A DNA stretch of 36,613 nt from an uncultured Gardnerella sp. (GTDB lineage: Bacteria; Actinomycetota; Actinomycetes; Actinomycetales; Bifidobacteriaceae), in contig CAMXWX010000006.1 of assembly GCA_947252975.1 (NCBI GenBank), forward strand, positions 1 through 36,613. The letters run 5' to 3'. The position numbers and the translations under genes are program-made. This document shows, piece by piece, positions 9,479-29,791 of the stretch; the first letter of the stretch is position 1, and each line of letters begins with the position of its first letter. The notes under the pieces are model-generated. The model was not told where the DNA came from. It did not search any database and saw only the letters and a program-made list of their open reading frames with translations.

Positions 9479-10359
9479 TGCTATCTCCAATCGACTTTAT
9501 ACAAGACCTTACAAACCCAGACCTTTGGTTCTTACTAAAAGCGCTTATAGTGGCGTGCCTTTCTAGCGTAATATGCGGAGTTGTAGGATGCTACGTAGTG
9601 CTGCGCGGAATGGCGTTTATTGGAGACGCAGTAGCGCACTCCGTGTTCCCAGGACTCGCAATCGCGTTTGTTTTGCAAGGAAACTTGCTATTTGGCGGCG
9701 CGCTAGCAGGAGTTGCAACCGCGCTAATCGTATCAATATTTAGCCAAAATCGCAGGCTTCGCGAAGACTCGTTTATAGGCGTATTTTTTGTGTCTGCCTT
9801 TGCGCTTGGAATCGTAGTAATATCAAAAGCTTCGGGCTATGCAGGATCCCTGGAATCGTTCCTATTTGGCTCCATTACAGGAATCCCAGACTCCGACATT
9901 GCTGTAGTAGCAATAACAGGGCTAATAATCGTAACGCTTTTAATGATGTTCCACAAAGAGCTAGTATGCGTTTCGATGGACCGCGAAACAAGCCGCGCAA
10001 TGGGGTTGCCAGTAGCGTGGTTGGATGGAATGCTATACGTTTTAGTTGCGATTGCTGTAGTGGTATCTGTGCAAATAATTGGAAACGTGCTTGTTTTAGC
10101 GCTTTTGATTACGCCTGCGGCGACTGCGCGATTGCTTACTGACCGACTTGGAAAGATGATGATTTTAGCGCCTGCTATTGGGTGCGCTTCTTCGATTCTT
10201 GGAATGTACTTGTCTTGGAGTTTAGACACTGCCACTGGCGGAACAATCGTTTTGGTTGCGACTTTTATGTTTGTTCTAGCGTGGGTGTGCTCGCCTAAAC
10301 ACGGGTTGGTAGCGAGGATTGTGCCAAAACTACGATCAGTTGTTGCACGATTTGACTGA
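9478..10359 (+). CDS. Metal ABC transporter permease (ZnuB/TroC type)
   Basis: This 293-residue integral membrane protein has about seven to eight hydrophobic helices and typical ABC-3 family sequence (FIGDAVAHSVFPGLAIAF near the N-terminus; VQIIGNVLVLALLITPAATA near 200). It forms the membrane channel for the upstream ATPase and lipoprotein, and the ATG overlaps the ATPase stop by one base. It is the last gene of the unit. A structured intergenic repeat begins on its stop codon, and no U-tract terminator is visible directly after it. Confidence 0.93.
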   Translation: MLSPIDFIQDLTNPDLWFLLKALIVACLSSVICGVVGCYVVLRGMAFIGDAVAHSVFPGLAIAFVLQGNLLFGGALAGVATALIVSIFSQNRRLREDSFIGVFFVSAFALGIVVISKASGYAGSLESFLFGSITGIPDSDIAVVAITGLIIVTLLMMFHKELVCVSMDRETSRAMGLPVAWLDGMLYVLVAIAVVVSVQIIGNVLVLALLITPAATARLLTDRLGKMMILAPAIGCASSILGMYLSWSLDTATGGTIVLVATFMFVLAWVCSPKHGLVARIVPKLRSVVARFD

Positions 10360-10470
10360 GCTTGAAATTGCATAATGCATTTCAAGCTCCTTCAAAGCGC
10401 TGAGCCGCTCAAGGCAGAAGCATTGCTTCTGCGCGGCGAAGACGTGAGCGCGGCTAATCCGCGCGAGCGA
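10358..10470 (+). repeat. Structured intergenic repeat, copy A
   Basis: This is the first of four related elements (see 19499, 26499, 29656). It begins with a hairpin GAGCTTGAAAT/ATTTCAAGCTC around a TGCATAATGC apex (10358-10389). Then comes CGCTGAGC and a stem GCCGC/GCGGC (10404-10408 and 10433-10437). That stem encloses the hairpin GCAGAAG/CTTCTGC (10414-10432). The last element is GCGCGG/CCGCGC (10448-10453 and 10459-10464), flanked by a GA/GA mismatch and CGT/GCG pairing. Sequence shared with the other copies lies mainly in the GAAGACGT and CGCTGAGC blocks, while the hairpin arms differ but stay complementary. A 65-codon open frame over this element is not credible as a gene. Confidence 0.8.
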
Positions 10471-10657
10471 TTTTCTCTATTTGCTGTTGCGCGAGGTTTG
10501 AGTATTTCTCTCCTCGCAAGTGACGCGCACTTTTACGGATGGTTTATGAACGTTAATATTCTAAGGTTTTAGGTTTTAGTACGGCGCTATTTATTGCTCG
10601 TAGAGAAATACATCAAACCTTCTGGATATCTAGGACTTTTGCGTGGCTTTTATCACC

Positions 10658-10745
10658 GAGATTCTCGATTTTTCTTGCTGCTTCAGCGAATCACCATCAA
10701 AGATGCTGAGGTTCGCTTCATCCGCTGCGAAAAATCTCGAATCTC
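10658..10745 (+). other. Intergenic structured element (long imperfect hairpin) upstream of plsC
   Basis: An 88-base rod can be drawn from the sequence. The outer stem is GAGATTC/GAATCTC (10658-10664 and 10739-10745), followed by a 3x3 internal loop and a stem ATTTTTC/GAAAAAT (10668-10674 and 10729-10735). Further in lie AGCGAA/TTCGCT (10685-10690 and 10712-10717) and an apical CATC/GATG with an AAA loop. It lies in the 300 bases between copy A and the acyltransferase gene, where I see no other gene. It could be a leader RNA element or a repeat; no T-run follows, so it is not a standard terminator. Confidence 0.5.
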
Positions 10746-10777
10746 TACAGCACCTGGCGTAATCATGTAGTGTGCTT

Positions 10778-11701
10778 ATGGAAGATTTTGCGGTTTATAG
10801 TTTGCGGCACAATAGACGTATGGTATCTAAAGGAAAACCTTCGCCTAGAAGCGCAGTTAAGCCGCTCAGCGATGAGCAAGTAGAACGCTTAGCGCGCGCA
10901 CACAAGTTAGTTGACCCTACTTATTACTACCCAACGGGCGCGCGGACGCCAAATACGGCAGAAATCAACGCGCAAAATCCAAAGGCAACCGAACGATTGC
11001 TTGAAGGAACATCTCGCGTGCTTAGATCTCGTTGCAAAGTGCGCGCATGGGGATTAGAGAATGTGCCAGAAGAAGGCGTGTTTATAACCGCTTGCACGCA
11101 CGTTACAATGTTCGACGTTTTTGTGCCAATGACTTCTCTATTCCACCAGGGCCGCCGTCCGCGATACATGGCAAAAGCAGAGCTTGCGAATTGGCCAATC
11201 ATGGGAAAATGGTTCCAGCTTGTTGGCATGCAACCAGTTCCGCGCAGAAGCGGAAAAGCGCGCGAAATCGAAGAAGAATCGATTAAAATCCTAACAAATG
11301 GCAGGCCGCTTAGCGTATGGCCAGAAGGAACAGTTACGCGCGACCCTCAAAAATGGCCTATGAGCATGAAGCCAGGAATCGGCATTATTGCGCTCGAAGC
11401 ATCGCGCAGACTTGGGCATCAAATTCCGCTATTTTGCGCTGTTACGTGGGGTGCTGCAAGCATTAATCATTGGTGGCCGTGGCCAAAGAAAAACGTTGTA
11501 ATGTGCTACGATGCGCGTCTTGATTATTCGGATCTTCTTGAAGATATGGAGCATTGGGGCGATTTGCCGCCTATGGAGTCTGCTGCAGAGCTGGCTCGTC
11601 GCGTACGCGTGCGCATGACGGAAATTATGGAAGAGATTCGCGGCGAAAAATCGCCAGCTGGATACTTCGATTACAAGCTTATGAAAAGAGTTAAAGAATA
11701 G
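10778..11701 (+). CDS. 1-acyl-sn-glycerol-3-phosphate acyltransferase (PlsC family)
   Basis: This protein of about 307 residues has the acyltransferase HX4D catalytic motif as HVTMFD (about residue 108) and the substrate-binding PEGT motif (WPEGTVTRD, near 180). It would transfer an acyl chain to lysophosphatidate or a related glycerolipid at the membrane face. The N-terminal extension before the catalytic domain is about 90 residues, as in actinobacterial homologues. The start is uncertain: ATG 10778 is chosen over GTG 10772, ATG 10820 is possible, and none has a good ribosome-binding site. gpsA follows 332 bases later, and both act in phospholipid synthesis. Confidence 0.85.
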   Translation: MEDFAVYSLRHNRRMVSKGKPSPRSAVKPLSDEQVERLARAHKLVDPTYYYPTGARTPNTAEINAQNPKATERLLEGTSRVLRSRCKVRAWGLENVPEEGVFITACTHVTMFDVFVPMTSLFHQGRRPRYMAKAELANWPIMGKWFQLVGMQPVPRRSGKAREIEEESIKILTNGRPLSVWPEGTVTRDPQKWPMSMKPGIGIIALEASRRLGHQIPLFCAVTWGAASINHWWPWPKKNVVMCYDARLDYSDLLEDMEHWGDLPPMESAAELARRVRVRMTEIMEEIRGEKSPAGYFDYKLMKRVKE

Positions 11702-12033
11702 CGATTGTAAATTTGTGATTCGATAAGCGATAAGTCGTTGATAAGTCGTTAGCAAATCGTTGATAAATCAGTGATAAGTTGTTAGAAAATCGTAAGCAAA
11801 TCACTAATAAATCACTAATAAATCACTAATAAAGTCTTCACAAAATGCCCGTAAAGCGCACTGTGTAGAATTATGTAATAGTGTGATTAAAAGTTGACTA
11901 AGTTGACTACAAATTAACTAAGTTTGCTACGAGTTGACTAAGTTGACTATAACTTGACTAGTTGTAAATCGCTACAAATGGCTTACGACCAAAGTAGTTT
12001 ACAAACTCATAAATCGAAAGGCTAGGCGTAAAC
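11702..12033. repeat. Intergenic region of degenerate short tandem repeats
   Basis: There is no gene here. Bases about 11718-11835 are a run of decayed 10-12-base units such as GATAAGTCGTT and AATCACTAATA. Bases about 11889-11965 are a second run built on GTTGACTAA. The second run creates several TTGACT -35-like hexamers ahead of gpsA, so any promoter there is ambiguous. This looks like microsatellite expansion and drift rather than a defined element. Confidence 0.6.
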
Positions 12034-13029
12034 ATGAACGTTACGGTGTTGGGTGCTGGAGCTTGGGGTACGGCGTTTGGGCAGGTGCTTGCAGACGCGG
12101 GAAATCAAGTGACAATGTGGGCTATAGAGCCGCAAATTGTTGAAGGCATTCGTAGCAATCACCGCAACGAAGTTAGGCTGCCAATCGTAGAGCGTTTGCC
12201 AGAAAACATTACAGCTACGGGGGATCGCGCAGAAGCTGTAGCAAACGCAGACATTGTAGTAGTTGCGATTGCAGCACAGTTTGCGCGCGTTGCACTCGAA
12301 GAATTTGTTGGCAAGATTCCGCAAAATGCGATTGTTGTTTCGCTTATGAAAGGCATTGAGCGATCTACAGGCAAGCGCATGGACGAAGTTGTGTGCGAGG
12401 CCTTGAACTTACCGCGCAACCGTTTTGCAGCGCTATCTGGGCCAAACTTAAGCAAAGAAGTGGCACTAAGGCAGCATGCGGCGGCGGTTGTTGCGTGCGA
12501 GAATCGCGCAAATGCCGAAGTGGTTGCAAAAGCTTGCTCAAACAGCTACTTTAAGGCGTTTGTTTCAACAGATGTGATTGGCGTAGAGATGTGTGGATCG
12601 CTTAAAAACGTGGTTGCGCTTGCAGTTGGCATGGCTCGAGGAGCAGGTTACGGCGAAAACACGGCTGCTATGATTGAAACGCGCGGTCTTGCAGAGTTGA
12701 CGGCATTGGGCGTTGCGGAAGGCGCGGATTCTCGCACTTTTGCAGGACTTGCAGGCTTTGGCGATTTAGTGGCAACTTGCGGATCTCCTCTAAGCCGCAA
12801 CTACACTTTTGGATCAAATCTTGGAAAAGGCATGAGCGTTGAAGAAGCAACTGCTGTGAGTAATGGCGTTGCGGAAGGCGTTCCAACTACTAGCGCGGTT
12901 GTAGCAATGGGCAAGCGTTTGGGAGTTGCAACTCCGCTTGCAAGCGCAATGGCTCGCGTGCTGGAAGAAGGAATCTCTTGCCAAGAGATGCTTGCAATGC
13001 TTTTTGATAACGATGTTTGCGAAGAGTAG
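12034..13029 (+). CDS. gpsA: NAD(P)-dependent glycerol-3-phosphate dehydrogenase
   Basis: This 331-residue cytoplasmic enzyme reduces dihydroxyacetone phosphate to sn-glycerol-3-phosphate for phospholipid synthesis. The N-terminal dinucleotide-binding motif GAGAWGTAFG (residues 7-16) is clear. The family signatures LSGPNLSKEVA (about 135-145) and the catalytic-Lys segment GSLKNVVALAVG (about 188-199) are present. The C-terminal domain has GFGDLVATC and SRNYTFG. Length is normal for GpsA. It lies between a PlsC-type acyltransferase and ddl, an order I recall for bifidobacteria. Confidence 0.96.
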   Translation: MNVTVLGAGAWGTAFGQVLADAGNQVTMWAIEPQIVEGIRSNHRNEVRLPIVERLPENITATGDRAEAVANADIVVVAIAAQFARVALEEFVGKIPQNAIVVSLMKGIERSTGKRMDEVVCEALNLPRNRFAALSGPNLSKEVALRQHAAAVVACENRANAEVVAKACSNSYFKAFVSTDVIGVEMCGSLKNVVALAVGMARGAGYGENTAAMIETRGLAELTALGVAEGADSRTFAGLAGFGDLVATCGSPLSRNYTFGSNLGKGMSVEEATAVSNGVAEGVPTTSAVVAMGKRLGVATPLASAMARVLEEGISCQEMLAMLFDNDVCEE

Positions 13030-13084
13030 TGAAGCACGAAAGCTATGCGTAAGTCGCAAGCGTATAAGCGTGTAAATCGCAAGC

Positions 13085-13155
13085 AAAAATAATAATCAAA
13101 AATAACTAAGATAACTAAAATAATTCAAAATAACTAAAATAATTCAAAATATAAA
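13085..13155. repeat. AT-rich tandem repeat before ddl
   Basis: About 70 bases made of repeated AATAACTAA and AATAATTCAA units end in AAAAGGA, which supplies the ribosome-binding site for ddl. Two nearly identical 19-base units (AATAACTAAAATAATTCAA) are visible at about 13112-13148. Confidence 0.65.
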
Positions 13156-13164
13156 AGGAAAAAA

Positions 13165-14310
13165 ATGACGAAAAAGCGTGTAGTGTTCTTGTACGGCGGT
13201 AAAGCGGACGAACATTCGATTTCTTGCATATCGGCTGCTGGAGTGCTCAGTGCTGTAGACGAAAGTCGATTTGAAATCGTGCGCATTGCAATCACAAAGC
13301 AAGGCGAGTGGATTGTTGGCGGCGAAGATCCGCGAAACTTCCACATGGAGCAAGGCGAGCTGCCAGTAATCACAAAAACCGCAGAAACGCGCGATGTTGT
13401 GCTAGACCCAGCAAAGGGCGCCGACGGATTTTTGGTGCGAGAGGCGGATGGCACGCTTGCAAGCTTAGGTCATATTGACGCTGTTTTCCCAGTTCTTCAC
13501 GGACCAAACGGTGAAGATGGCACTTTGCAAGGCTTGCTAGAAATGATGCAAGTTCCGTACGTTGGTTGCGGAGTTTTAGCCTCAGCTGCGTGCATGGATA
13601 AATACTACGCAAAGCAGCTTTTTAAGGCGGCGGGAATTGCTGTGGCTCCTGGAATCGCACTGGACGCGCGCACGTTTGCAAGCGACGCGGCAAATCGCTT
13701 CGGCGCGTATGCAAACGAAATTCTTGAGCAAGTTGAAGAAGCAAAACTAGAGTATCCGCTTTTTGTAAAGCCAAGCCGTGCAGGGTCTAGTTTTGGAGTT
13801 ACAAAAATAGAAACGCGCGATGCTAAGGCCTTAGCAGATGCCGTTTATGAGGCCTCAAAGCACGATTGGCGAGTGCTAGTAGAGCAGGGAATTGATGCGC
13901 GCGAGATTGAGTGCGCTGTTCTTGCGGCACGCGATGGTGAAGAGCCAAAAGCCAGCTGGCCTGGAGAGGTTGTGCTCGACAAGCGCCAGGCTGGCGAAGA
14001 CCAGTTCTACGATTTTGACAGCAAATATATGGATTCTGCAGCTTCGCACGTTGAAGTTCCAGCAGATTTGCCAGAAGAGACTTTGCAACGCGTTCGCAAA
14101 ACGGCGCTCGCAGCATTTAAGGCGGCAGACGGCAGAGGACTAAGTCGCGTGGATTCTTTTGTGACTAAAGACGGTCGCGTAATCCTTAACGAGATCAACA
14201 CAATGCCTGGATTTACGCCAATTTCCATGTATCCAAAAGCTTGGGAAGCAACGGGAATAAGCTACAGCGATTTAATCACAAAGCTTATTGAAGGCGTTAT
14301 TTTAGACTAG
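13165..14310 (+). CDS. ddl: D-alanine--D-alanine ligase
   Basis: This 381-residue ATP-grasp ligase joins two D-alanines for the peptidoglycan stem. The N-terminal FLYGGKADEHSISC, the central KPSRAGSSFGV (about 210-220) and the C-terminal metal site NEINTMPGFTPISMYPK (about 335-351) are all present. The omega-loop has FYDFDSKY with the Tyr expected for D-Ala-D-Ala rather than D-Ala-D-Lac ligases. AAAAGGA ahead of ATG 13165 supports the start. A CPBP protease gene follows after 12 bases and probably shares its transcript. Confidence 0.95.
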   Translation: MTKKRVVFLYGGKADEHSISCISAAGVLSAVDESRFEIVRIAITKQGEWIVGGEDPRNFHMEQGELPVITKTAETRDVVLDPAKGADGFLVREADGTLASLGHIDAVFPVLHGPNGEDGTLQGLLEMMQVPYVGCGVLASAACMDKYYAKQLFKAAGIAVAPGIALDARTFASDAANRFGAYANEILEQVEEAKLEYPLFVKPSRAGSSFGVTKIETRDAKALADAVYEASKHDWRVLVEQGIDAREIECAVLAARDGEEPKASWPGEVVLDKRQAGEDQFYDFDSKYMDSAASHVEVPADLPEETLQRVRKTALAAFKAADGRGLSRVDSFVTKDGRVILNEINTMPGFTPISMYPKAWEATGISYSDLITKLIEGVILD

Positions 14311-14322
14311 TCGGAGGTAAAA

Positions 14323-15415: not shown

Positions 15416-15458
15416 TGAATTTATTTAATTGAATATTGATTTAAGTTAGGAGGCGTCT

Positions 15459-16841: not shown

Positions 16842-16898
16842 TCGAGTAATTGAATAATTTAGTAATTTGATAGGCTGCTCGAGTGGAAAAGGTGCGAA

Positions 16899-19498: not shown

Positions 19499-19662
19499 TG
19501 CGCGACGACCTGCCTTTTCGCTTAGAGCGTAGCGCGAATCGACGATTTCGAGCTGCATAATGCGTGAGAAATCACCTCGATTCGCTGAGCCGCTCAAACG
19601 TAAAGTCCAGTGGACTTTACGTGCGGCGAAGACGTGAGCGCAGCTAACCTGCGCGAACGATG
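19499..19662 (+). repeat. Structured intergenic repeat, copy B (hybrid of both subtypes)
   Basis: It starts two bases after the Maf-NUDIX stop. The 5' part (TGCCTTTTCGC, TTAGAGCGTAGC, 19511-19533) equals that of copies C and D. It runs into a TGCATAATGC-apex hairpin (GATTTC/GAAATC) like copy A, enclosed by GCGAATCGA/TCGATTCGC (19534-19542 and 19577-19585). The core follows: CTGAGC, stem GCCGC/GCGGC (19589-19593 and 19623-19627), a 12+1+12 palindrome ACGTAAAGTCCA-G-TGGACTTTACGT (19598-19622), GAAGACGT, and GCGCAG/CTGCGC (19638-19643 and 19649-19654). Compared with copy A, the last stem shows a G-C to A-T compensatory pair. Confidence 0.85.
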
Positions 19663-19671
19663 ACCTGCCTT

Positions 19672-19720
19672 GTAGTGCGTTTGTATTAAAAAACGCCAAA
19701 ATTCAGTACAATCGCACTAC
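19672..19720. repeat. Inverted repeat GTAGTGCG...CGCACTAC
   Basis: GTAGTGCG (19672-19679) pairs with CGCACTAC (19713-19720), with TTGT/ACAA extending the stem inward. Each arm is a copy of a recurring motif, TAGTGCGWTTGTA, also found at 169, 19735 (variant) and 26687. Function is unknown; it may be a paired protein-binding site or repeat end. Confidence 0.55.
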
Positions 19721-19752
19721 GGTTTTGTGTGTTTGCGTAGTGTATTTGTATC

Positions 19753-19891
19753 ATAATCCGAGTTTGTTGCTTCTTATCTATGAAATCTTATAAAATGACG
19801 TTTATGCGCTGATGCATGCTAGTTTTCTGCTAGTTGTTAGATGTTATACGGCTTGTGCTTGATTTTTGTAATTTTGTTTGTGATTCATGGG
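19753..19891 (+). repeat. Long direct repeat R1, first copy (promoter-like)
   Basis: About 139 bases are nearly identical to 25366-25500. Both begin ATAATCCGAGTTTGTTG and end GTGATTCATGGG. Each copy contains a -35/-10-like pair (TTGCTT or TTGATT, 16 bases, TATAAA). Both lie just upstream of a phage-type DNA-binding gene (ORF6N here, KilA-N at the second copy). They therefore look like duplicated control regions, or the homology used to recombine cassettes. Confidence 0.75.
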
Positions 19892-20080
19892 TACACTACA
19901 GCAAGATTCAACGAGCAGGTAAAAAATAACATAGAAAAATTTGATAATGATTTTATGTTTCAGCTAAGCAAATCCGAGTTGGAATATTTGCAATCAAATT
20001 TTTTGACCGCAAATATTAGTTCTAAAAGCAGGTCGCTTCCATATGCTTTTACTGAGCAGGGTATTTATATACTCACTGCG
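19889..20080 (+). pseudogene. ORF6N-domain gene fragment
   Basis: The translation contains the conserved middle of ORF6N (KilA-N-related) phage DNA-binding domains: YTTARFNEQVKNNIEKF, DNDFMFQLSKSELEYLQSNF and LPYAFTEQGIYILTAV. The usual N-terminus (the strand and helix before the YTT segment) is replaced by repeat R1, and the C-terminal rest is cut by repeat R2. Only about 64 residues remain. An open frame of 92 codons covers it, but its first 16 and last 12 codons are repeat sequence. I call it a remnant, not a working gene. Confidence 0.75.
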
Positions 20081-20124
20081 GTGTGGAGTGGCTGGAAGCG
20101 GCTTTCAAATATAAACTAGTTTTG
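20081..20124 (+). repeat. Short direct repeat R2, first copy
   Basis: GTGTGGAGTGGCTGGAAGCGGC and following bases match 25231-25275 at most positions, including the CTAGTTTTG end. It directly follows the ORF6N fragment, just as the second copy directly follows another gene fragment. Confidence 0.7.
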
Positions 20125-20217: not shown

Positions 20218-23200
20218 ATGGAAGTTGAAAAATTTGACCAGTGGGCAGAGCAGCTGTTGGATACTGGTAAGAATCGCAATAACTTAGTTAATTTTAAGGA
20301 TACTAAAACTTCAACATTAGATGTTTTGCTTCCAAGCTGTGAAGATATTTTTCAAAAGTTTTCATCAGAAAATTCTGGTTCCTTTAAAATATTTGACCCA
20401 GAAGAAGAATTTAATAAAAAGCATAATGACAAGTATTATGTAGATAATTTAAATACGGATGATTTTAATGAGATAGAATATGCAGATGGTAACCCAAGAA
20501 AAAAATATGAATCAAAAACTGATTTTAAGAATAATTATTCCAACAAAATAAAAGCTAATCAAATTCTTGCATATAGTTCATCTGGAAAGCCATTAGAAGC
20601 AGCAAGAAATATTATGAGAAAATCCAGGGAAATTATTGAAGAGACTGGAGTAAATGTTGCGTTCATTACATTTGGGATAATTCATTGGAAAGAAGCTAAT
20701 TACGCTGATACTATTTACAACGCACCAATACTTTTAATACCTATTCAATTAAGTAGTGAGTCGATTGGACGGTCATATAAAATATCTGTTTTAGATAATG
20801 ATGTTATTGTAAATAGAGCGTTTTCTTACAAACTTGATAACGAGTATGGCATAACTCTTCCGAATTATAATAGTGAAACCACGTTAGAAGAATATTTTGA
20901 AAATGTACAAAACATGGTTTCTAAACTAGGCTGGACAATAAGTAAAGAGTGTAAAATTGGGCTATTTTCATTTGCAAAGATTAATATGTATGTGGATCTT
21001 AAGGAAAATAAAAATGATATTTTAAATAGCCCTACTGTTCGTCAACTTTTTGGCGAAGTAGTTGATTCTGGTAATTCATACTTAGATAGCGAAGATATTG
21101 ATAAATCTGATTACGATTCAATAATTGATTTATGTAACGTTGTAGATGCTGATTCTAGCCAAATAGAGGCTATAGAAATGGCTAAATCTGGTAAAAGCTT
21201 TGTTTTGCAGGGGCCTCCAGGAACTGGTAAGAGTCAGACAATTACGAATATTATTGCTGAATGTCTTAATGATGGTAAGAAAGTATTGTTTGTTTCAGAA
21301 AAACTTGCTGCTTTAAACGTCGTTTATAACAAAATGAAGCAGGTTGGTCTTGCGGATTTTTGTCTTCAGCTTCATTCAAATAAAGCCAACAAAAAGAGTG
21401 TTATTGAAGATATATGCAGAAATCTCAATATTAAGAAGGATGTTGTAAGTAATATTAAATTTGATGAAGAAATAAAAGCTAAGAAAAATGTTAAAGAAAA
21501 ATTAGATTCTTATGAACGTAATCTTCATGAGGTGCAACCCGTAATAAATAAAAGTTTATATGATTTATATGAGTCACTTGCAAAATGGGATTATGCGACA
21601 GAATTTATATGCCCCACTGAAGATATATCAAAATTAGGTTCTGAATACTTGAATAGGTCTACTGATCTTTTAAGAAGCTATGTTGATTATTCATATTATA
21701 TCGGTTATGACTATCGCAAGAATCCTTGGTATGGGTATATAAATCAAGATAATTCAATTGCCGAAGAAGTACGATTAAAGGGCAGTATTTCTTCTGCTGT
21801 AAATACTTTGAACGACCTAATTCCATTGTTGGACAGGATTTCTGAACAGTATGGTGTTTGTTGTGAAAGTTTAAAAGATGCTCTATTCTGGGGAAAGTTC
21901 TTTGACTTTGTTGCTAATTCAGCATTAGTTACGCCATCTATATTAAAGAGACAGAATTTTGATATTGCTTACAATGCGCTAGAAAATCTAGAATCAATGA
22001 GCAATAAAATACATGCTTTAATGCAGGAATTATCTGATTGTAATGAGGATATTTATTATCTGGATGGTTTAGATAACTACAATAATTTAAGACAATTTAG
22101 AAGTGTATTATCTAGAATTTTTAATTCTGAATATAAAAAAATTATTTACGATATACGTTCATGCAAGAAAGTAAATAAAAAACCTAATTATAAAGAATCA
22201 ATTCTTTTAATGGGGCTTTTGGCTAAATATCAGAAATCTATTAGTGAATATTCTGACGCTGAAGCTTCTATAAAATCATTGCTTGGTTCAGCTTATAAAG
22301 GTATTGATACTGATTGGAATTATGTTAGCAATCAAATGAGAATTCTTAAAAATATGCTTGATAGTGGATACTCATTTGAATCCTTGGAAAGATATTCAAG
22401 CTTTGCGTCTGAAAGCAAAATTTTTGTGGAATATTCTCATCAAATTAACAATATTTTGAATGAAAATAGCATCAAAAATATAGATTACATTTCTGGATGT
22501 TTTGATAAAAATATTGTTGATTTTAATACAATTGATGCTGTTAAAGTTCAATCTAGATTGCATAAGTGTATTGAGTCTTCTGATATATTGCAAAAATGGT
22601 GTACTTTTAGAGACATTCTTGCTCGTTTAGAGAAGAATGGGCTTATTCCTTTTATCCATGAACTTATAAAGAATAATGTGAGTAAAGATAATATTGTTCC
22701 TACATTTAATAAGCAATTTTATTTACAGTGGATTGATTTTGTAATTTTAAAAAGTCCGATTCTTTCTCAATTTAATAGAGCAACTCAGGATAGATTCATA
22801 AAAGATTTTATAGAGAAAGATTTAGAAGAATTTGATATTAATAGAAAAAAGTTGCATGCAAAGTTAGCAAATGCATGTCCTGGAAAGGAATGTGCTGTTG
22901 CTGGGAGCCAATTAAGTGAGCTTTTGTATGAGAACCAAAAATCAAGGAATAAAAAGAATATACGTTTACTTCTTTCAGAAACCAAAGATACTGTACAAAT
23001 AGTTAAACCTTGCTTTATGATGTCTCCTTTAAGTGTGAGCACATTTCTTAATTATAAAGATTTAAAGTTTGATGTTGTAATATTCGATGAGGCTTCTCAG
23101 GTCTTTCCATGGGATGCGGTTGGTGCAATTAGCCGTGCTAAACAAGCTATCATAGTTGGCGATTCAAAGCAGATGCCACCTAGTAACTTTTTCGCAACAT

Positions 23201-24978
23201 CTGTTAATAATGATGATGACACAGATAACTATGACGATATTAGGAGCTTTGATTCTATACTAGATTTTGCTTCTAGCACTATGCCTCAGCTAAGACTAAA
23301 TTGGCATTATCGTAGTCGCAGCGAGCAGCTTATTGCATTTTCAAACAAGAATTTTTACAACGGTAGCCTTATAAGTTTTCCCGCTGCTAAAGATAATTCA
23401 GAAGGTATGGGTGTGGATTATTACTACGTAAATGGAGTATTTAATCGCTCATATCATAATAATCGAAAAGAAGCTGAATATGTTGTCGATTTAATTTATA
23501 AAAACATTGAGAAATATCCTAATAGGAGTTTAGGCGTTGTTGCTTTTAGTCAGTCTCAACAAAATCTCATAGATAATTTGCTTTTTAAACGCCGTCAAGT
23601 TACTCCTGAAAAAGAGTTTTTCTTTGATTCTGGTAAGGAAGAGCCTTTCTTTATAAAGAATCTTGAAACAGTTCAGGGAGATGAACGTGACGCAATCATT
23701 TTTAGTATTGGTTACGGTCCTGATAGTAATGGAATGTTCTCAACTAATTTTGGTCCTTTAAATCGCGATGGAGGGCAAAAGAGGCTGAATGTTGCCGTTA
23801 CAAGGGCAAAATATAATATTCAAGTTGTTTCTTCCATGCATGCAACTGATATAGATTTAAGTCATAGTGAATCAGATGGTGCTCGTCTTCTTCGAGAATA
23901 TCTTGATTTTGCTGAGAATGGTGAGATTGCCTTGCAGCGCAGTGAAAGCGTGGCAAGTTATGATCAGTTTGATTCCGATTTTGAGGTTGAAGTATGTGAG
24001 TTTTTGCGAAATCATGGTTATTCAGTTGATACGCAAGTGGGATGCTCTGGATTTAGAATAGATCTCGGTGTTAAAGTTCCTAATAGTTCAGATTATATAC
24101 TTGCTGTCGAATGTGATGGTGCCACTTACCATTCGTCAAAGAATGCGCGAGATCGTGATAGATTGCGACAAGCAATTCTAGAAAATATGGGTTGGAAGTT
24201 CTATCGCATTTGGTCAACCGAATGGTTCAGGAATAAGATTTCTGAACAAGATAAACTCTTAGAATTTGTTCGTGAAGTAGTGGAAAACTATAAAAATCAT
24301 AAAGATGATTATGCAGAGAATCTTGGAGGCAGACTGCCTGAAAGCTCCTCATTTTTATCTGAGGCTGAGGTTGATTTATGCGGAAAATCTTTATACAATG
24401 CCGAGTTCTCGGAAAAATCAACTAATAGTATTCTTAATGATATTCCTTTTAGTTTTGTTAAGTATAAGATGGCGGATACTAATAAGGATTGCAAGAATAT
24501 TTTTAGTAAATATAATAACGCTGATTTCAAAAGTAGTGTGAAAGATATTTTGGAAGTTGAGTCTCCTCTATCAGAAAATCTTCTTTTACAAAGAATACTT
24601 TGGTATTTCGAGCGCGAAAAGGTTACTTCATCAGTGCAAAAAAGGTTTGACATCAAAATGCGTGGATGTGAATATTTTGGTATTGTCAGGGAAAATGGCT
24701 TTATGTATTTGAAGGATAAACCGATTACTTTCCGACTCCCAGGAGATATTGTTCGTGATTTTAAACAAATTGCTCCAGAAGAGCTAGGTGTTGGCATGAT
24801 GGAAATTATTAGTAAAAATGTTGTTTTGGCGAAAGAAGGATTATATCGCTTTATGCTTGGCTTATATGGTAAAAAGAGAATTGGTAAATTAGATGGCGAG
24901 GCTTTAGATAATGCCTTATCTATGCTGCTTAAATCTGAGAAAATAGTTGAGATTGATGGACAGATTTCACTAAAATAG
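20218..24978 (+). CDS. DUF4011 / SF1 helicase / Vsr-like nuclease, probable anti-phage protein
   Basis: This single 1586-residue protein begins with a DUF4011-type region (about 1-300). A split SF1 helicase follows: Walker A GPPGTGKS (332-339), motif II DEASQ (957-961), motif III VGDSKQMPPS, motif V TVQGDERDAI and motif VI RLNVAVTRAK (from 1189). A long coiled insertion separates motif I from II. Residues about 1250-1350 form a Vsr/PD-(D/E)XK nuclease with Asp1282 and Glu1298-x-Asp1300 (VECDGATYH). The C-terminus resembles DUF3320. This architecture matches the single-gene Hhe anti-phage system as I recall it; activity is inferred. The gene is visibly more AT-rich than its neighbours and sits among gene remnants and duplicated repeats, so it is probably acquired. 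It appears intact. Confidence 0.85.
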   Translation: MEVEKFDQWAEQLLDTGKNRNNLVNFKDTKTSTLDVLLPSCEDIFQKFSSENSGSFKIFDPEEEFNKKHNDKYYVDNLNTDDFNEIEYADGNPRKKYESKTDFKNNYSNKIKANQILAYSSSGKPLEAARNIMRKSREIIEETGVNVAFITFGIIHWKEANYADTIYNAPILLIPIQLSSESIGRSYKISVLDNDVIVNRAFSYKLDNEYGITLPNYNSETTLEEYFENVQNMVSKLGWTISKECKIGLFSFAKINMYVDLKENKNDILNSPTVRQLFGEVVDSGNSYLDSEDIDKSDYDSIIDLCNVVDADSSQIEAIEMAKSGKSFVLQGPPGTGKSQTITNIIAECLNDGKKVLFVSEKLAALNVVYNKMKQVGLADFCLQLHSNKANKKSVIEDICRNLNIKKDVVSNIKFDEEIKAKKNVKEKLDSYERNLHEVQPVINKSLYDLYESLAKWDYATEFICPTEDISKLGSEYLNRSTDLLRSYVDYSYYIGYDYRKNPWYGYINQDNSIAEEVRLKGSISSAVNTLNDLIPLLDRISEQYGVCCESLKDALFWGKFFDFVANSALVTPSILKRQNFDIAYNALENLESMSNKIHALMQELSDCNEDIYYLDGLDNYNNLRQFRSVLSRIFNSEYKKIIYDIRSCKKVNKKPNYKESILLMGLLAKYQKSISEYSDAEASIKSLLGSAYKGIDTDWNYVSNQMRILKNMLDSGYSFESLERYSSFASESKIFVEYSHQINNILNENSIKNIDYISGCFDKNIVDFNTIDAVKVQSRLHKCIESSDILQKWCTFRDILARLEKNGLIPFIHELIKNNVSKDNIVPTFNKQFYLQWIDFVILKSPILSQFNRATQDRFIKDFIEKDLEEFDINRKKLHAKLANACPGKECAVAGSQLSELLYENQKSRNKKNIRLLLSETKDTVQIVKPCFMMSPLSVSTFLNYKDLKFDVVIFDEASQVFPWDAVGAISRAKQAIIVGDSKQMPPSNFFATSVNNDDDTDNYDDIRSFDSILDFASSTMPQLRLNWHYRSRSEQLIAFSNKNFYNGSLISFPAAKDNSEGMGVDYYYVNGVFNRSYHNNRKEAEYVVDLIYKNIEKYPNRSLGVVAFSQSQQNLIDNLLFKRRQVTPEKEFFFDSGKEEPFFIKNLETVQGDERDAIIFSIGYGPDSNGMFSTNFGPLNRDGGQKRLNVAVTRAKYNIQVVSSMHATDIDLSHSESDGARLLREYLDFAENGEIALQRSESVASYDQFDSDFEVEVCEFLRNHGYSVDTQVGCSGFRIDLGVKVPNSSDYILAVECDGATYHSSKNARDRDRLRQAILENMGWKFYRIWSTEWFRNKISEQDKLLEFVREVVENYKNHKDDYAENLGGRLPESSSFLSEAEVDLCGKSLYNAEFSEKSTNSILNDIPFSFVKYKMADTNKDCKNIFSKYNNADFKSSVKDILEVESPLSENLLLQRILWYFEREKVTSSVQKRFDIKMRGCEYFGIVRENGFMYLKDKPITFRLPGDIVRDFKQIAPEELGVGMMEIISKNVVLAKEGLYRFMLGLYGKKRIGKLDGEALDNALSMLLKSEKIVEIDGQISLK

Positions 24979-25002
24979 TAGTTTTTATAGTTTTACTGGT
25001 GT

Positions 25003-25227
25003 AAAAGTGCAATCAAATGGCTGATTGAGCGATATCAAGTAGCTGTAGATAAGAAGACTGGGATTGTACGAAATCCAAATGAAGCATACGATAATCCGCG
25101 CTATATCGTTGATTTGGTTAAAAAGGTAGTTCGCGTTAGCGTAGAAACAATGAACATTATTGACGGTTTGCCAAAACTTAACGAAATCACTAATAAGCCA
25201 GATTGCTGGCCAGATGCGTGGAATTAG
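25003..25227 (+). pseudogene. C-terminal remnant of a restriction-type DEAD/DEAH helicase
   Basis: An open frame without a start reads SAIKWLIERYQVAVDKKTG, VRNPNEAYDNPRYIVDLVKK and VVRVSVETMNIIDGLPKL, and ends at TAG 25225-25227. This is the characteristic C-terminal end of large restriction helicases (type ISP or related). In these the motif 'ERY.V..DK.SGI..DPN....PRYI.DL..R.V.VS.ET..I...LP' recurs. Everything upstream is missing, and the fragment begins 25 bases after the helicase stop. It shows that a restriction-modification gene once stood here and was replaced or cut by the incoming helicase gene. Confidence 0.75.
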
Positions 25228-25230
25228 AAA

Positions 25231-25300
25231 GTGTGGAGTGACTGGAAGTAGACTTCCAAATGTTAGCTAGTTTTGCAGAATTTGGAAGTAGACTTCCAAC
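25231..25300 (+). repeat. Repeat R2, second copy, with paired GGAAGTAGACTTCC hairpins
   Basis: The first 45 bases match 20081-20124. Two identical inverted repeats GGAAGTAGACTTCC lie exactly 40 bases apart (25244-25257 and 25284-25297), each followed by CAA. Degenerate relatives occur at about 20094 and at 26750-26805. Confidence 0.7.
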
Positions 25301-25365
25301 TTGCATACTTTTAGTTAGAGCATTGTTTTGAGAATTAACTCTTTGCTTTGCTTGAGTTTTTGGAA

Positions 25366-25500
25366 ATAATCCGAGTTTGTTGATTCTTATCTGTGAAATC
25401 TTATAAAATCATACTTATGCGCTGATGCATGCTAGTTTTCTGCTAGTTGTTAGATGTTTTGTGGCTTGTGCTTGATTTTGTATTGCTTGTGATTCATGGG
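25366..25500 (+). repeat. Long direct repeat R1, second copy (promoter-like)
   Basis: Nearly identical to 19753-19891, with a few substitutions and small deletions. TTGATT and TATAAA, 16 bases apart, form a plausible promoter for the KilA-N gene that starts 86 bases downstream. Confidence 0.75.
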
Positions 25501-25586
25501 TTTTGTGTTAAGCGCATAGAAATAAAGTAAACAAATCAAATAAAGCAATTAATTGCGTAAATTTGCGTAAAAATTAGGGGGCAATT

Positions 25587-26446
25587 ATGTCTAATGCGTC
25601 AAATATTAAAAAAGATACTATTACAGCAAAAGGCTTTACTATTCAGGTTTATACGGAAGATTTTAGAAATGATTACGTTAGTTTAACCGATATTGCGAGA
25701 TATAAAAACAAAGAAGAGCCTAAAGATGTTGTTAAAAACTGGCTGAGAGTGAAGAATACTATTGAGTTCTTGGGATTGTGGGAGAGTATTAACAATCCGA
25801 ATTTTAAAGGGGTCGAATTCGACTCCTTTAAGAAGAGGCTGGTTCTAATGCTTTTACTTTATCTCCTAAAAGATGGGTAGAATCAACAAATGCTATTGGC
25901 ATAGTTTCCAAATCTGGTAAGTATGGTGGAACTTACGCTCATAAAGATATAGCATTTAAGTTTGCAGCTTGGATTTCAGCAGAATTTGAACTATATATTA
26001 TCAAAGATTATCAAAGACTTAAATCTGATGAGAACTCAAGGCTTTCGCTGAATTGGAATTTGAATCGTGAGATTTCGAAGATTAATTACAAGATTCATAC
26101 GGATGCTATTAAAGAATATTTGTTGAAGGATTTGACTCCTGAGCAGTTGATGTATAAGTATGCAAATGAAGCAGATTTGTTAAATGTTGCACTGTTTAAT
26201 AAGACTGCTAAGCAATGGAGAGACGCAAATCCTAAGTCAAAAGGCAACATTCGAGACGAGGCGAGTATTAATGAGCTTCTGGTATTGGCGAATATGGAAA
26301 GCTATAACGCTGTTTTGATTTCTAAGGGTTTGCCACAGGCGGATCGAATGGTGGAACTTAGGAATTTGGCACGAACGCAGATTTTATCTTTTGAGAATTT
26401 GAATAATTCTGGAATAAAGAGTTTGGATTCCGTGCTAAAAAATTGA
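25587..26446 (+). pseudogene. KilA-N domain protein gene with a one-base frameshift
   Basis: GGGGG precedes ATG 25587. The first frame encodes a KilA-N domain (YVSLTDIARYKN, WLRVKNTIEFLGLWE, FNNPNFKGVEF-like) but ends at 25880 after a nonsense tail. From about 25838 the +2 frame continues the same protein (GSNAFTLSPKRWVESTNAIG, GGTYAHKDIAFKFAAWISAEF, then a C-terminal domain) to the stop at 26444-26446. One extra G in AAGAGG (making AAGGAGG) near 25836 would restore a 286-residue protein. KilA-N proteins are phage or mobile-element DNA-binding factors. The break may be a real mutation or a sequencing error. Confidence 0.85.
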
Positions 26447-26498
26447 GTTTAATCACTTTTTAATTCTGCGCTTAATGCTGAGATTTACATCGTTTTTG

Positions 26499-26634
26499 TG
26501 CGCTCCGACCTGCCTTTTCGCTTAGAGCGTAGCGCGAAAAGGCAATTCGGAGCGCTGAGCTTGCTTAAGGTTGAAAGCACAGTGTGCTTTCAACGCAAGC
26601 GAAGACGTTCGCGCGCTGTAACGCGCGAACGAAC
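26499..26634 (+). repeat. Structured intergenic repeat, copy C
   Basis: The outer stem GCGCTCCGA/TCGGAGCGC (26500-26508 and 26547-26555) encloses an 11-bp stem TGCCTTTTCGC/GCGAAAAGGCA (26511-26521 and 26534-26544) with loop TTAGAGCGTAGC. Stem GCTTGC/GCAAGC (26559-26564 and 26595-26600) encloses a 12+1+12 palindrome GTTGAAAGCACA-G-TGTGCTTTCAAC (26570-26594). The last stem is CGTTCGCGCG/CGCGCGAACG (26606-26615 and 26622-26631). No T-run follows. An open frame of about 60 codons crosses it, but the related copy D breaks that frame while keeping the pairing. Confidence 0.88.
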
Positions 26635-26880
26635 TAAGTATTCTCGTGTCGCCCTTTGCGCTTTCTGTAGTGCTTTTGTAAATCTGTAGTGCGTTTGTAT
26701 CATAATCCGATTTTTTGCTGCTTGCATCGGCTTACCCGATAGCTGAACTTGGAAGTGGGTTTTCGGGAGTGAACTAGTTTTGCGGAGTTTGGAAGTAGGC
26801 TTCTGACTTTTGCTAGTTTGCTAGTTTGCTGATTTGTGCAAAGTTTGTGTAAAAATGACGCGTGTTTTTGCGTGAAAATA
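26635..26880. other. Intergenic region with degenerate R2-like repeats
   Basis: No gene is visible. TAGTGCTTTTGTAAATC and TAGTGCGTTTGTATCATAA occur in tandem at about 26669-26704. They are followed by TCATAATCCGA, as also seen after copy B (19751). Degenerate R2 relatives with GGAAGT and ACTAGTTTTGC occur at about 26750-26830. The same order (structured repeat, TAGTGCG motif, ATAATCCGA) appears on both sides of the helicase island. Confidence 0.55.
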
Positions 26881-26911
26881 TTGATTTTTGCCTACGGGGG
26901 GGGGGTATTCT
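26881..26911 (+). promoter_or_regulatory. Putative phase-variable promoter with a G10 tract
   Basis: TTGATT (26881-26886) and TATTCT (26906-26911) flank a 19-base spacer that includes ten consecutive G residues (26896-26905). A spacer of 19 is longer than the optimum, and loss of two G would give 17. Slippage could therefore switch expression of the surface protein at 27023, a mechanism known from Neisseria porins. A second, weaker promoter candidate downstream is TATTAT (26964-26969). If that one is the true promoter, the tract would lie upstream of it. Confidence 0.55.
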
Positions 26912-27022
26912 AATTACTGATAGTCCATGTTTTAGGGTTTAGATTGCTGTAATACTGCGACTGTATTATGCAATCGCGTTCTTCGCACGCTTATACGTGA
27001 GAAGGAAGAAGAAAGGAAGATC

Positions 27023-28702
27023 ATGTTAAATAAGAAAGTGATTGCTGGCATTGCTACCGCATCTATTGTTGCGGCTTGCGGATTTGGTAGCTTCGCGTTC
27101 GCTGAAGAAGTTCCTAATAATCCTCCAAAGCCAGCCCCAGTAACTACTCCAACCGTTAAGCCTGAAGATGATATTTATGGTTCTGGTTCTGAATGGGACC
27201 AGCTCCAGAATACTGAAAATGAGTATGATAATTATTACGACCAAATGTATAACACTCATACTAAGTATGGTAATGGAGATAAGCCATTGCCAAAGTTCGT
27301 CCCTCACATGTTTGATGAGGACCATGATCCGAACGGTAATGACACTAAGCCAGAGATTCCAGACGAGCATAAGAATCCTCAGACTCCTCCAGCTCCACAG
27401 CCAAAGGTTGACACTACTAAGGAAGATGCTGAGTTTAAGGCGGCTCAAGATTTAGCTAACCAGAAGGCTCAGAACGCGTTGCTCATGAAGCAGATTGCCG
27501 AAGGTAGTGTTAAAGCCTTGCAAGAAAAGGTTAATAAGGCTACTGGTGCTGAAAAGACAAAGCTTCAAGAACAGTTGGAAAACGCTCAAAAGATTGCCAC
27601 TGCTTTCAGCGAGTTGAATGATAAGGCTACGAGCGTGGCTAAGGCTTACACTCAGGCTGCAACTATTCGCGGCGATGTTAAGGCTCTTGAAGGTCAAGTT
27701 GCGACCGCTCAAGCAAAGTTTGACGAGTTGGCAAAGCAACAGACTGGCCCGTCTGGTTCCGAAGCTTATAATAAGGCTGCTGAGGAGCTTGGAAAGTTGC
27801 AGAAGCAGCTCAAGAGCAAGAAGAATCTTCTCGAGGCTGCTAATAAGGGTGTAACTAAGGCTGAAGAAACGCTTGTAAAGCAGGAAACTAAGGTTCAAGA
27901 AGTTCAGAATCCTAAGAAGTAAGACCCTCAGGCACCAAAGTTTAACGTTCATGACGTTCTCGCCAATGTTAATGGTGATAAGGTTGCTGACTATAAGTTG
28001 ACTCCAGCTGATGTGAGCGAGCTTGTTGGTGAAAAGAAGAATACAGATCCAGTTGTTCCACCAGCTCCAAAGCCAGTGACTCCAACTCCAAAGCCAGTGA
28101 ATCCTGTGGAACCAGACCATACGACTCCGTCTAATCCTTCAACTCCATCGGATGATACTCCATCTTCGACTCCGTCTGTAACAACTCCATCCGCTTCGAC
28201 TCCTGCTGGCGCATCTCAGTCTGCTCCTGCTGCTGGTGTTCCTGCGGCTCCTGCTTCTGTTGCTGACTTGTTGCCTGCTTTGAAGGGCATGATTACGGCT
28301 GGTGCTAATAATGTTGTTGTTGCTGGCGTTGTGAACAGGGTGACTTTGAGTATTTCTAACCAGGCGTTCCTTGATCGCTTGAACCGTGATGGTTCTGCTA
28401 AGGCTTATGCGTTCATTTACTCTAGCCCACGTCTTCTTAAGGGTGCTGATGGTACTAATTATGTGACTGTTCGCTTGGTTAATGGTAAGCCTCAGTTTGA
28501 TGCCATGTTCCCAGCTGGTTATTCTGGCAAGCATACGGTTGTTCTTGTTGATGAGCAGGGCAATCAGCTTGGTTGGACTAACATTACTGTGAAGAGTGGT
28601 GTTAGTGGTTTGCCTAATAGTGGTGTTGGTGTTGCTTTGACTGCTTTGGCTGCTAGCGTTTTGGCTGGTGCTGGTGCAGCGTTCCGTAAGATTCGCCGCT
28701 AA
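27023..28702 (+). pseudogene. LPXTG-type coiled-coil surface protein interrupted by an in-frame stop
   Basis: Both halves are in one frame, separated only by TAA at 27920-27922. Without that stop the product would be 559 residues. The N-terminal half has a signal peptide (cleavage about AFA-EE, residue 27) and a Pro/Asp-rich segment. A long alpha-helical coiled coil (about 130-298) follows. After the stop come a Pro/Thr/Ser-rich wall-spanning region (PKPVTPTPKPV), a folded C-terminal domain (about 415-520) and a sorting signal. That signal comprises LPNSG, a hydrophobic segment and the basic tail RKIRR. As read, the product would be secreted but unanchored (299 residues). AAGGAAG precedes the ATG. 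The stop may be a mutation, an error or, less likely, read through. A terminator follows at 28762. Confidence 0.85.
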
Positions 28703-28761
28703 GCTATTTGGCTGTGTTTAGCTCTGAATGGTGCTGAACGCGTAGAAGCTATATATATGAT

Positions 28762-28798
28762 AAAGGCCTTTGTGTGTAATGCGCGCAAGGGCCTTTTT
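28762..28798 (+). terminator. Rho-independent terminator after the surface protein
   Basis: AAAGGCC/GGCCTTT (28762-28768 and 28790-28796), extended inward by TTTG and G-C pairs, is followed by a T-run to 28798. Confidence 0.85.
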
Positions 28799-28901
28799 GT
28801 ATGCTTTTTACATGCTTTGCGCCAATTTGCATTAGGCTTTTTGCATGCTTTGATTAGTTCGATTAGCCATATTTTGATAATCTCTGGCACAATGTGATAA
28901 C

Positions 28902-28917
28902 ATTTCGTATACGAAAT
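28902..28917 (+). promoter_or_regulatory. Palindromic operator upstream of the ribbon-helix-helix gene
   Basis: ATTTCGTATACGAAAT is a perfect 16-base palindrome four bases before the AGGAG ribosome-binding site (28921-28925). A TTGATA (28874-28879) lies at a suitable distance upstream to be the -35. The position is typical of an autoregulatory site, so the downstream DNA-binding protein is the likely ligand (inference). Confidence 0.65.
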
Positions 28918-28930
28918 ATTAGGAGTGATT

Positions 28931-29218
28931 ATGGCTAATTTTCGCGGTGAAGGTGGCGTTGACGTTACCGATGAAATGCTTGATAAATGGGAAAATGATG
29001 CTGAAAAAGGCATATATCATGGAAAAGCTGGTAATTTACGTATTAAAAAGCCGCTTGGCAGACCGCCTCTTTATGAAGAAGCTATGCTGCCTATAACTTT
29101 CCGCATATCTGCTGAAGATGCAGAGGCTCTAAAGGCTTCTGCTGATAAGCAGGGTGTGAAAGTTGGGGACGTTGTTCGAGAAGCGTGCAAACTGCTTCTT
29201 GCTAGGCAAGCACGATGA
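28931..29218 (+). CDS. Ribbon-helix-helix (CopG/antitoxin-like) protein, paralogue 1
   Basis: ATG 28931 is chosen because AGGAG lies five bases upstream; a GTG at 28925 would put the start inside that site. The 95-residue protein has an N-terminal segment VDVTDEMLDKWENDAEKGIY and the stretch LGRPPLYEEAMLPITFRI. A C-terminal ribbon-helix-helix pattern follows (ITFRISAEDAEALKASADKQ, then VGDVVREACKLLLARQ). Such proteins are antitoxins or small repressors. No toxin gene is next to it. The next gene encodes a relative, and the palindrome upstream suggests autoregulation. Confidence 0.75.
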   Translation: MANFRGEGGVDVTDEMLDKWENDAEKGIYHGKAGNLRIKKPLGRPPLYEEAMLPITFRISAEDAEALKASADKQGVKVGDVVREACKLLLARQAR

Positions 29219-29260
29219 TTGCAAAGTGTTGTGATTGCTTAGCTTTTAATATGTCGCTTG

Positions 29261-29301
29261 TTTTTTTTTTTAACGCTTGAGAACAATGCAATACTTATAA
29301 T
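29261..29301 (+). promoter_or_regulatory. Promoter region with T11 tract upstream of paralogue 2
   Basis: A perfect TATAAT (29296-29301) lies 52 bases before the next start. The nearest -35-like TTGAGA (29277-29282) is only 13 bases away, which is short. Eleven T residues (29261-29271) sit just upstream and may act as an UP-type element or be length-variable. Confidence 0.5.
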
Positions 29302-29352
29302 TCATGCGAATCGGCTTACAAAAGGATTTTTACAAGAGATAAGGGATGCAAG

Positions 29353-29643
29353 ATGAGTAGGAATACGTATACGGCAGAAAATGGATTCGTTATTACAGAC
29401 GATATTGTTGATAAGTGGGCTGCAGAAGCGGAAGGCAATTTTTCTGGTGCTGCTGTTACAGAGTTTTCTGGAAGAGCTTGGGAAGATGAGACTCAGCCAT
29501 TGAAGCCGCGTACTGTTAGGTTAAGTGATACTGTTTGGCATTTAATCGAAGATGATGCGAAGCGCAGAAAGATGACTGTGAGTGCGTGGACTAGAAAAGC
29601 TATACTTAACGAATTGTCTAATGAGCTAGCGTCGCAAAGGTAG
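29353..29643 (+). CDS. Ribbon-helix-helix (CopG/antitoxin-like) protein, paralogue 2
   Basis: This 96-residue protein shares the N-terminal pattern 'G-x-VTD-x(2)-(V/L)DKW-x(2)-(D/E)AE' with paralogue 1. It has its own C-terminal ribbon-helix-helix pattern: LKPRTVRLSDTVWHLIEDDA, then MTVSAWTRKAILNEL. The strand PRTVRLSD would insert in the DNA major groove. It is preceded by GGGATGCAAG. No toxin gene neighbours it, and the next gene is on the opposite strand beyond structured repeat D. The pair may be two small regulators or orphan antitoxins. Confidence 0.75.
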   Translation: MSRNTYTAENGFVITDDIVDKWAAEAEGNFSGAAVTEFSGRAWEDETQPLKPRTVRLSDTVWHLIEDDAKRRKMTVSAWTRKAILNELSNELASQR

Positions 29644-29655
29644 CTGTGCGCTTTT

Positions 29656-29791
29656 TGCGCTCCGACATGCCTTCGCGCTTAAAGCGTAGCGCGCGAAGGT
29701 AATTCGGAGCGCTGAGCTTGCTTAAAGTTGAAAGCACGGTGTGCTTTCAACGCAAGCGAAGGCGTTAGCGCGCTTAGGCCGCGCTAACGAC
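29656..29791 (+). repeat. Structured intergenic repeat, copy D
   Basis: It has the same layout as copy C. The outer stem is GCGCTCCGA/TCGGAGCGC (29657-29665 and 29704-29712). The inner 11-bp stem TGCCTTCGCGC/GCGCGAAGGTA (29668-29678 and 29691-29701) has loop TTAAAGCGTAGC. Stem GCTTGC/GCAAGC (29716-29721 and 29752-29757) encloses GTTGAAAGCAC/GTGCTTTCAAC (29727-29737 and 29741-29751). The last stem is CGTTAGCGCG/CGCGCTAACG (29763-29772 and 29780-29789). Relative to copy C, two base pairs in the inner stem and two in the last stem have changed on both sides. It lies between convergent genes. Confidence 0.88.

Follow-up and report, generated by a model that had tools for sequence, protein, structure and literature searches.

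The 36,613-nucleotide stretch of DNA analysed here (contig CAMXWX010000006.1 of an uncultured Gardnerella sp.; hereafter, the window) carries four structured elements, A to D. A first-pass annotation had described four copies with the shared blocks CGCTGAGC and GAAGRCGT, a common order of stems and compensated differences between copies. All of these are present in the sequence, and each copy is confirmed as a unit, on the plus strand, with three predicted hairpins, H1, H2 and H3. The family is far larger than four, however, and it has features of mobile elements. We conclude, with a probability of roughly 0.65, that the units are copies of a miniature mobile DNA of about 130 bp, of the kind represented by repetitive extragenic palindromes (REP) and bacterial interspersed mosaic elements (BIME), which likely spreads at the DNA level. 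This reading jointly explains the sharp ends of the units, the sites that lack a unit, the copies on both strands, the composites and the mosaics.

Structure and covariation of the hairpins

Each unit consists of H1, followed by H2, in which a base formed by CTGAGC and GCGAAG is joined to an inner stem with a one-sided bulge (TYAA), and then by H3. The H2 base can be written as one helix with the pairs C-G, T-A, G.A, A.G, G-C and C-G. This helix is longer than had been noted, with two pairs beyond the tandem G-A. We compared 45 distinct readings of the base, using a pattern that permitted either pyrimidine and either purine at the places concerned. Adjacent to the tandem G.A, 25 readings have a T-A pair, 11 have C-G and one has a broken pair. 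The eight further readings have GCTC on the 3' side; four of them retain the pair (two T-A, two C-G), and the four that do not are two loci read on both strands. At the equivalent two positions H3 carries GA/GA, TC/GA or TA/TA, and the outer stem of H1 alternates between GCGACGA/TCGGAGC and GCTCCGA/TCGGAGC. These variants reveal an exchange between tandem G.A and Watson–Crick pairs that is common to the bases of all three hairpins. The G.A pairs are presumably of the sheared type.

Covariation was assessed against shuffles, which leave the kinship among the sequences in place. In an alignment of 38 Gardnerella cores (A3; 37 distinct), from which the inner H2 stem was left out, the share of paired cells is 92.1% (87.4% in shuffles), and the cells altered on both sides number 25 (7.0 in shuffles); the further pair types, 12 versus 11.0, are not exceptional. 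In a second alignment, of 32 H2 hairpins of the Bifidobacterium type (A4; 28 distinct), 98.9% of cells are paired as against 84.0%, 70 cells are changed on both sides as against 19.9, and slid versions of the alignment drop to 31–44% pairing. Nine of the 16 pairs in A4 change on both sides, or nine of 11 within the stem, the lower helix being invariant because the search pattern fixed it. Finally, 94 distinct stems were assembled as 45-base sequences from the 137 matches to the H2 core described below, duplicates and other lengths being removed by hand. All pairs except the first and last beat 500 of 500 shuffles, and the sixth is paired in 91 of the 94 stems (41.5 in shuffles). A structured repeat family with covariation is borne out by all three data sets.

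The first-pass annotation had gone further and taken covariation as a sign of selection on a folded nucleic acid. Paired changes can also arise in palindromes by template switching, so that covariation by itself does not establish that an RNA is under selection. The units might be neutral palindromes, without function or transposition, whose arms are perfected by template switching and whose variants are spread by recombination between copies. The replacement of GA/GA by TC/GA at the bases of H1, H2 and H3 is what is expected when one arm is copied onto the other, the hairpin variants are shuffled, and both the tandem pairs and the 3-kb segment between two of the window copies suggest recombination. 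We nevertheless consider this explanation improbable: some units stand at otherwise intact sites, and their unrelated flanks would not be reached by recombination alone. Moreover, the A3 and A4 copies retain both the asymmetry of CTGAGC/GCGAAG and the bulge on one side. The retention of these asymmetric parts, the tandem G-A and the bulge, argues for constraint, with the qualification that they were partly built into the search patterns.

Range of the family

A strict pattern scan returned 40 stretches, 30 of them in Gardnerella and the other ten chance-like by eye. A covariance model built from A3, in which the four window copies are included, recovers all four and detects no further copy in the window. 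Across four Gardnerella genomes it gave 47 (in a genome of 1.5 Mb), 24, 16 and 25 matches. Further genomes were drawn from a genus-level group of 112, which under the GTDB taxonomy is probably Bifidobacterium with Gardnerella inside it. Across 61 of these the model found 9–47 matches in seven small genomes (1.5–1.8 Mb) and one to four weak matches in 13 others; three of the weak matches, when inspected, had a related H2 core. Four genomes (G013, G033, G046 and G048) were treated as Gardnerella on the strength of many model matches and close proteins, and G001–G004 are the Gardnerella genomes of loci L001, L003, L017 and L029.

The H2 core, expressed as a pattern (CTGAGC...GCGAAG with tandem G-A, one-sided bulge and a covarying 11-bp stem), has 137 matches in 37 of the 112 group genomes, and the reversed pattern has no match in the same 112. 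A scan of the order covered 149 genomes; six belong to the group, two of them with matches, and none of the 143 outside the group contains the core.

No named family had been recognised in the elements, and at gathering scores Rfam gave no match in the window or in eight related loci. A lax-threshold Rfam search over 26450–29850 returned three weak matches, none of which overlaps C or D. Among the matches listed in searches of the open-access literature we found no earlier description of these elements. Spread by phages was considered and rejected: the three and one pattern matches on viral contigs were chance-like, and positions 9000–31000 of the window had no near match in phage or plasmid records.

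Unit ends and orthologous sites

Conservation among the Gardnerella copies runs from (T)GCGC..CGACCTGCC to ..GCGARCGA, beyond which they are unrelated; the 28 copies with both ends measure 124–134 bp. At the left end, aligned from 32 anchored copies out of 63, most columns inside the unit exceed 1 bit (a few lie at 0.6–0.7), as compared with 0–0.4 bit outside. At the right end, anchored in 18 of the 63 copies and placed a few bases early in four of these, the values are mostly 1–2 bits inside and mostly 0–0.6 outside. Small, dispersed, sharp-ended and missing from some sites, the units recall a miniature inverted-repeat transposable element that a conventional DDE transposase mobilises in trans. 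This we regard as very unlikely, since there is no target-site duplication (1.61 for own flanks versus 1.63 for swapped flanks in 28 units) and the termini, GCGC..CGA...GCGARCGA, look by eye more like a direct repeat than an inverted one.

At orthologous sites, both flanks were found in another fetched genome for 25 of 62 units, and 18 of these units are missing from at least one such genome. Five of the 25 have a unit-length segment in another genome, the classes overlapping. These are counts of units rather than of independent sites: unit B and its G001 counterpart enter twice, and tandem pairs enter as two. Five junctions are clean on both sides, namely L255 (+) against L034, L255 (−) against L268, the second L239 unit against L249, and L079 and L078, which were compared against the window and L131. 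Junctions clean on the left only were seen at L003, L027, L257 and L268.

The window's own sites give a mixed picture. At site B, G001 has the same unit and G002 is without it, the right-hand junction not being clean. The left flank of site C continues without a unit in G013 and G033, and G002 has an H1-like piece there. Units C and D lie 3.1 kb apart in the window; G001 lacks this segment and has two tandem units in its place, with 81 bp between their cores. At site A, G013 has only an H3-like hairpin, so that gain and loss of H1–H2 are indistinguishable.

Units such as L248, L240 and L126 have a truncated H1 start (GACCTGCCTT) within a few bases of their right end, which suggests insertion beside, or recombination with, older copies. 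Other short repeats were also observed near the units. The sequence TGTAGTGCGTTTGTA occurs just downstream of B (19671–19685 and 19707–19721) and C (26666–26680 and 26685–26699), and in the window it has four matches at no more than two mismatches where 0.09 are expected. A looser form has 21 counts in 327 kb of Gardnerella stretches, overlapping stretches included. On the same basis and on both strands, CGGCTACTAATAGCCG and TTTGAGTATTTCTCTCCTCGCA, dispersed repeats that lie beside units, have 11 and six counts, respectively, in the Gardnerella loci L126–L131 and L229–L268 together with the window.

Module exchange and composites

Mosaicism was examined in 63 copies, with types classed as 'other' dropped for each test. 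The H3 type is independent of the types of H1 (p = 0.30) and H2 (p = 0.48). Units are found in tandem at some loci.

A more elaborate arrangement is seen in a relative, genome G019, from which 20 of 24 copies were fetched. Here, H2 and further hairpins sit inside the loop of a CGTC-tagged, REP-like outer palindrome. The copies start with CGTC or TGTC in 17 of 20 cases, with GGTC in one and TTC in one, and L158 is without the tag; the stem of the outer hairpin nearly always starts with AT. Of the 18 right ends found, 17 read GAAGGATCC, and conservation is lost outside. Four of the 20 copies (L144, L148, L149 and L157) are composites, with the same second H2-type element inside and differing left flanks; L157 lies about 1 kb from L156, and part of the right end is common to both. 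At other loci of the group the outer arms are different at each locus and still pair; 15 of 33 loci reach the 95th percentile of swapped flanks and 18 do not.

Two further arrangements were noted. At L110 and L114 (about 1501–1545), which come from two genomes, the core, flanked by CGGCCATG/CATGGCCG, is enclosed by two copies of one stretch (ATGCCAACACC...). By eye, the cores of L116 and L123 are seemingly opposite in orientation within similar outer arms, as if invertible.

Gene context

Gene context was taken from our own calls with a codon-trained gene caller, elements without a called gene on either side being dropped and some copies being orthologous. The 117 elements with called genes on both sides comprise 83 in co-directional, 30 in convergent and four in divergent gaps; 113 lie downstream of at least one gene, and one overlaps a called gene. 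The scarcity of divergent relative to convergent gaps (p = 6e-6) indicates that promoter-only gaps are avoided. In co-directional gaps 52 copies are sense and 31 antisense (p = 0.028; 0.13 and 0.15 in the two groups alone). These figures supersede crude counts from open reading frames, which for 46 elements had given 23 same-strand and 19 opposite-strand upstream genes with nine divergent cases, and for 36 elements at Bifidobacterium-type loci 26 same and eight opposite. The first-pass annotation had placed every copy in plus orientation behind a plus-strand gene. The preference for gene ends holds across the family, and the strand preference is weak; the uniform orientation is true of the four window copies and is partly a local matter. 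A preference for the replication strand is not convincing, with 26 of 41 matches along the fork in a hand count on contig C2 of G001 (dnaA at 93 kb, terminus assumed to lie opposite, six matches on C3 left out).

A location behind genes and an excess on the sense strand are also to be expected of a structured RNA that acts as a 3' untranslated or intercistronic element, be it a terminator without a T-run, a protector of 3' ends or a processing site. The tandem G-A and the first pair of the H2 stem, which is G-T in 69 and A-C in none of 94 stems, are plus-strand features consistent with such a role, and excerpts from a transcriptome study of B. breve report termination sites at GC-rich stem-loops that were not classed as rho-independent (PMC5746004). 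We nevertheless consider an RNA role unlikely. The sense-strand preference is only weak, for which reason a strand-specific 3' untranslated RNA is not the best reading. Mismatches in the H2 stem are few and near equal in kind (20 G-T and 13 A-C of 940 cells), and a typical RNA helix has more wobbles than this. The strands are close in predicted RNA energy, just 1–6 kcal/mol apart with the plus strand ahead in A, B and D, and the absence of Rfam matches at gathering scores points the same way.

Proposed mode of spread

We favour spread of the units as DNA, by copying and insertion, possibly while single-stranded, through the action of some enzyme. The plus strand would fold into hairpins, in which the copying machinery may recognise two features, the tandem G-A and the bulge on one side (TYAA or GTTAA); it is the conserved asymmetry of the plus strand that points to recognition of a folded single strand. 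Insertions behind genes would be largely harmless, which would explain why units remain there, and those copies that are transcribed would form stable 3' hairpins.

Several observations weigh against this reading. The Y1_Tnp domain (PF01797) of HUH transposases is found in none of eight Gardnerella genomes; it occurs in seven of the 112 group genomes, with one among the 37 that have the H2 core, and so does not track the core. On these counts mobilisation by an IS200-type enzyme or a REP-associated tyrosine transposase (RAYT) was rejected. Copying by reverse transcriptase was likewise rejected, RVT_1 being found in none of 12 genomes; transposase families besides Y1 were not searched. The shuffling of modules is incomplete, the type of H1 being associated with that of H2 (p = 0.0025) and the base of H3 with its loop (p = 0.003). 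The left end could not be anchored in 31 of the 63 copies, which limits the left-end evidence to 32. Clean junctions usually come with the loss of some target bases, and at L004, L250 and L251 the flanks are themselves repeats. Deletion or rearrangement, as opposed to insertion, could account for some of the differences between genomes (at sites A and C, and between G001 and G013 at L239). The sequences share ancestry, and the counts still contain some orthologous copies. The sense-strand excess, as described above, is also what an RNA role predicts.

A candidate autonomous copy at L010 was discarded, since the gene between two opposite units (2339–3331) encodes an ORF6N-domain protein; only this pair was examined. 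An ORF6N-domain gene also stands beside unit B, at 19841–20119 of the window.

Comparison with known repeats

REP, BIME and REPIN elements are moved by RAYT (TnpA-REP) transposases. The units described here resemble them in forming mosaic arrays of asymmetric intergenic hairpins and, like BIME mosaics, are intergenic, multi-copy, present in both orientations and built of recombined modules, freely for H3 and not quite so for H1 and H2. They differ in the absence of the cognate Y1 transposase from all eight Gardnerella genomes searched.

The published CGTC-tagged REP have stems of 8–9 bp and loops of 4–5 bases and occur mostly as head-to-head dimers; at least five phyla are named, and the paper does not contain the word Actinobacteria (PMC3733652). 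Like them, our repeats are intergenic palindromes, scattered and sharply ended, for which no dedicated transposase is known, and the tag and AT start of the G019 outer hairpin add to the likeness. Unlike them, the G019 copies hold whole extra hairpins in the loop, and their inverted partners, where seen, face one another, by eye, with the untagged ends. The Gardnerella units are further removed. They are without the tag, most of the 32 anchored copies starting with GCGC(NN)CGACCTGCC or close to it, and unit A, which starts otherwise, is also without it. In place of a single short hairpin with a CCA tail they have three hairpins per unit, with an H2 inner stem of 8–11 bp and a 3-base loop.

The BOX elements of Streptococcus pneumoniae are modular intergenic repeats of interchangeable structured modules. 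The Gardnerella units are likewise modular; host and modules differ. The double-hairpin elements of fungal mitochondria are mobile palindromes whose stems vary with compensatory changes. In this the present units are alike, but the mitochondrial elements have two hairpins and reside in organelle DNA. It is conceivable, though doubtful, that the present units constitute a separate class of mobile DNA, in which branched multi-hairpin units, with interchangeable or nested hairpins sharing a tandem G-A base, would spread in Gardnerella and Bifidobacterium without target duplication and with neither an HUH transposase nor a reverse transcriptase.

The four units in the window

All four elements proposed earlier are real, and their ends have been redrawn from many copies; C alone is anchored on both sides in the multi-copy end alignment, those of A, B and D being set by eye. 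Unit A (about 10345–10470, plus strand) has an H1 of the CAAAG type, an H2 of type a with an 8-bp inner stem and an H3 in the tandem G-A form. If its by-eye left end is correct, it starts inside the upstream ABC-3 gene, overlapping the last codons and supplying the stop codon. The ABC-3 protein is 100% identical over 286–290 residues in three genomes, two of them Gardnerella, in keeping with the window's being part of a Gardnerella chromosome. Unit B (19500–19660, plus strand) has a partial H1, then a second H1 of the CGATT type, an H2 of type b and an H3 in the tandem G-A form. In unit C (26500–26632, plus strand), H1 spans 26500–26555, H2 about 26555–26604 and H3, in its Watson–Crick form, about 26607–26630. 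Unit D (29657–29790, plus strand) has H1, an H2 of type c and an H3 in the TA/TA form. A central hairpin of 12+1+12 had been described; this holds for B and C as a DNA palindrome, and the hairpin has 11 bp in D and 8 bp in A, each with a 3-base loop. Segments near the four units fold better than 200 of 200 dinucleotide shuffles, with z values of −4.2 to −8.0.

Units B and C flank a segment of candidate defence genes. The gene at 20218–24978 encodes a 1586-residue DUF4011/helicase/REase protein with a near full-length match to PDC-S37 (1386 bits), and it has no long alignment in the stretches compared from eight relatives. The frames at 25587–25880 and 26060–26446 have separate matches to different parts of PDC-S22.

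Overall, the family offers 137 pattern matches in which the asymmetric core is fixed and the stems covary, and its units vary from one close species to the next; what moves REP-like repeats in the absence of a RAYT is thereby made testable. In the window, a variable segment that contains candidate defence genes is bordered by two of the copies. Such repeats can influence how genes end and how the genome is rearranged in vaginal Gardnerella and, if our assignment of the group is true, in gut bifidobacteria as well.

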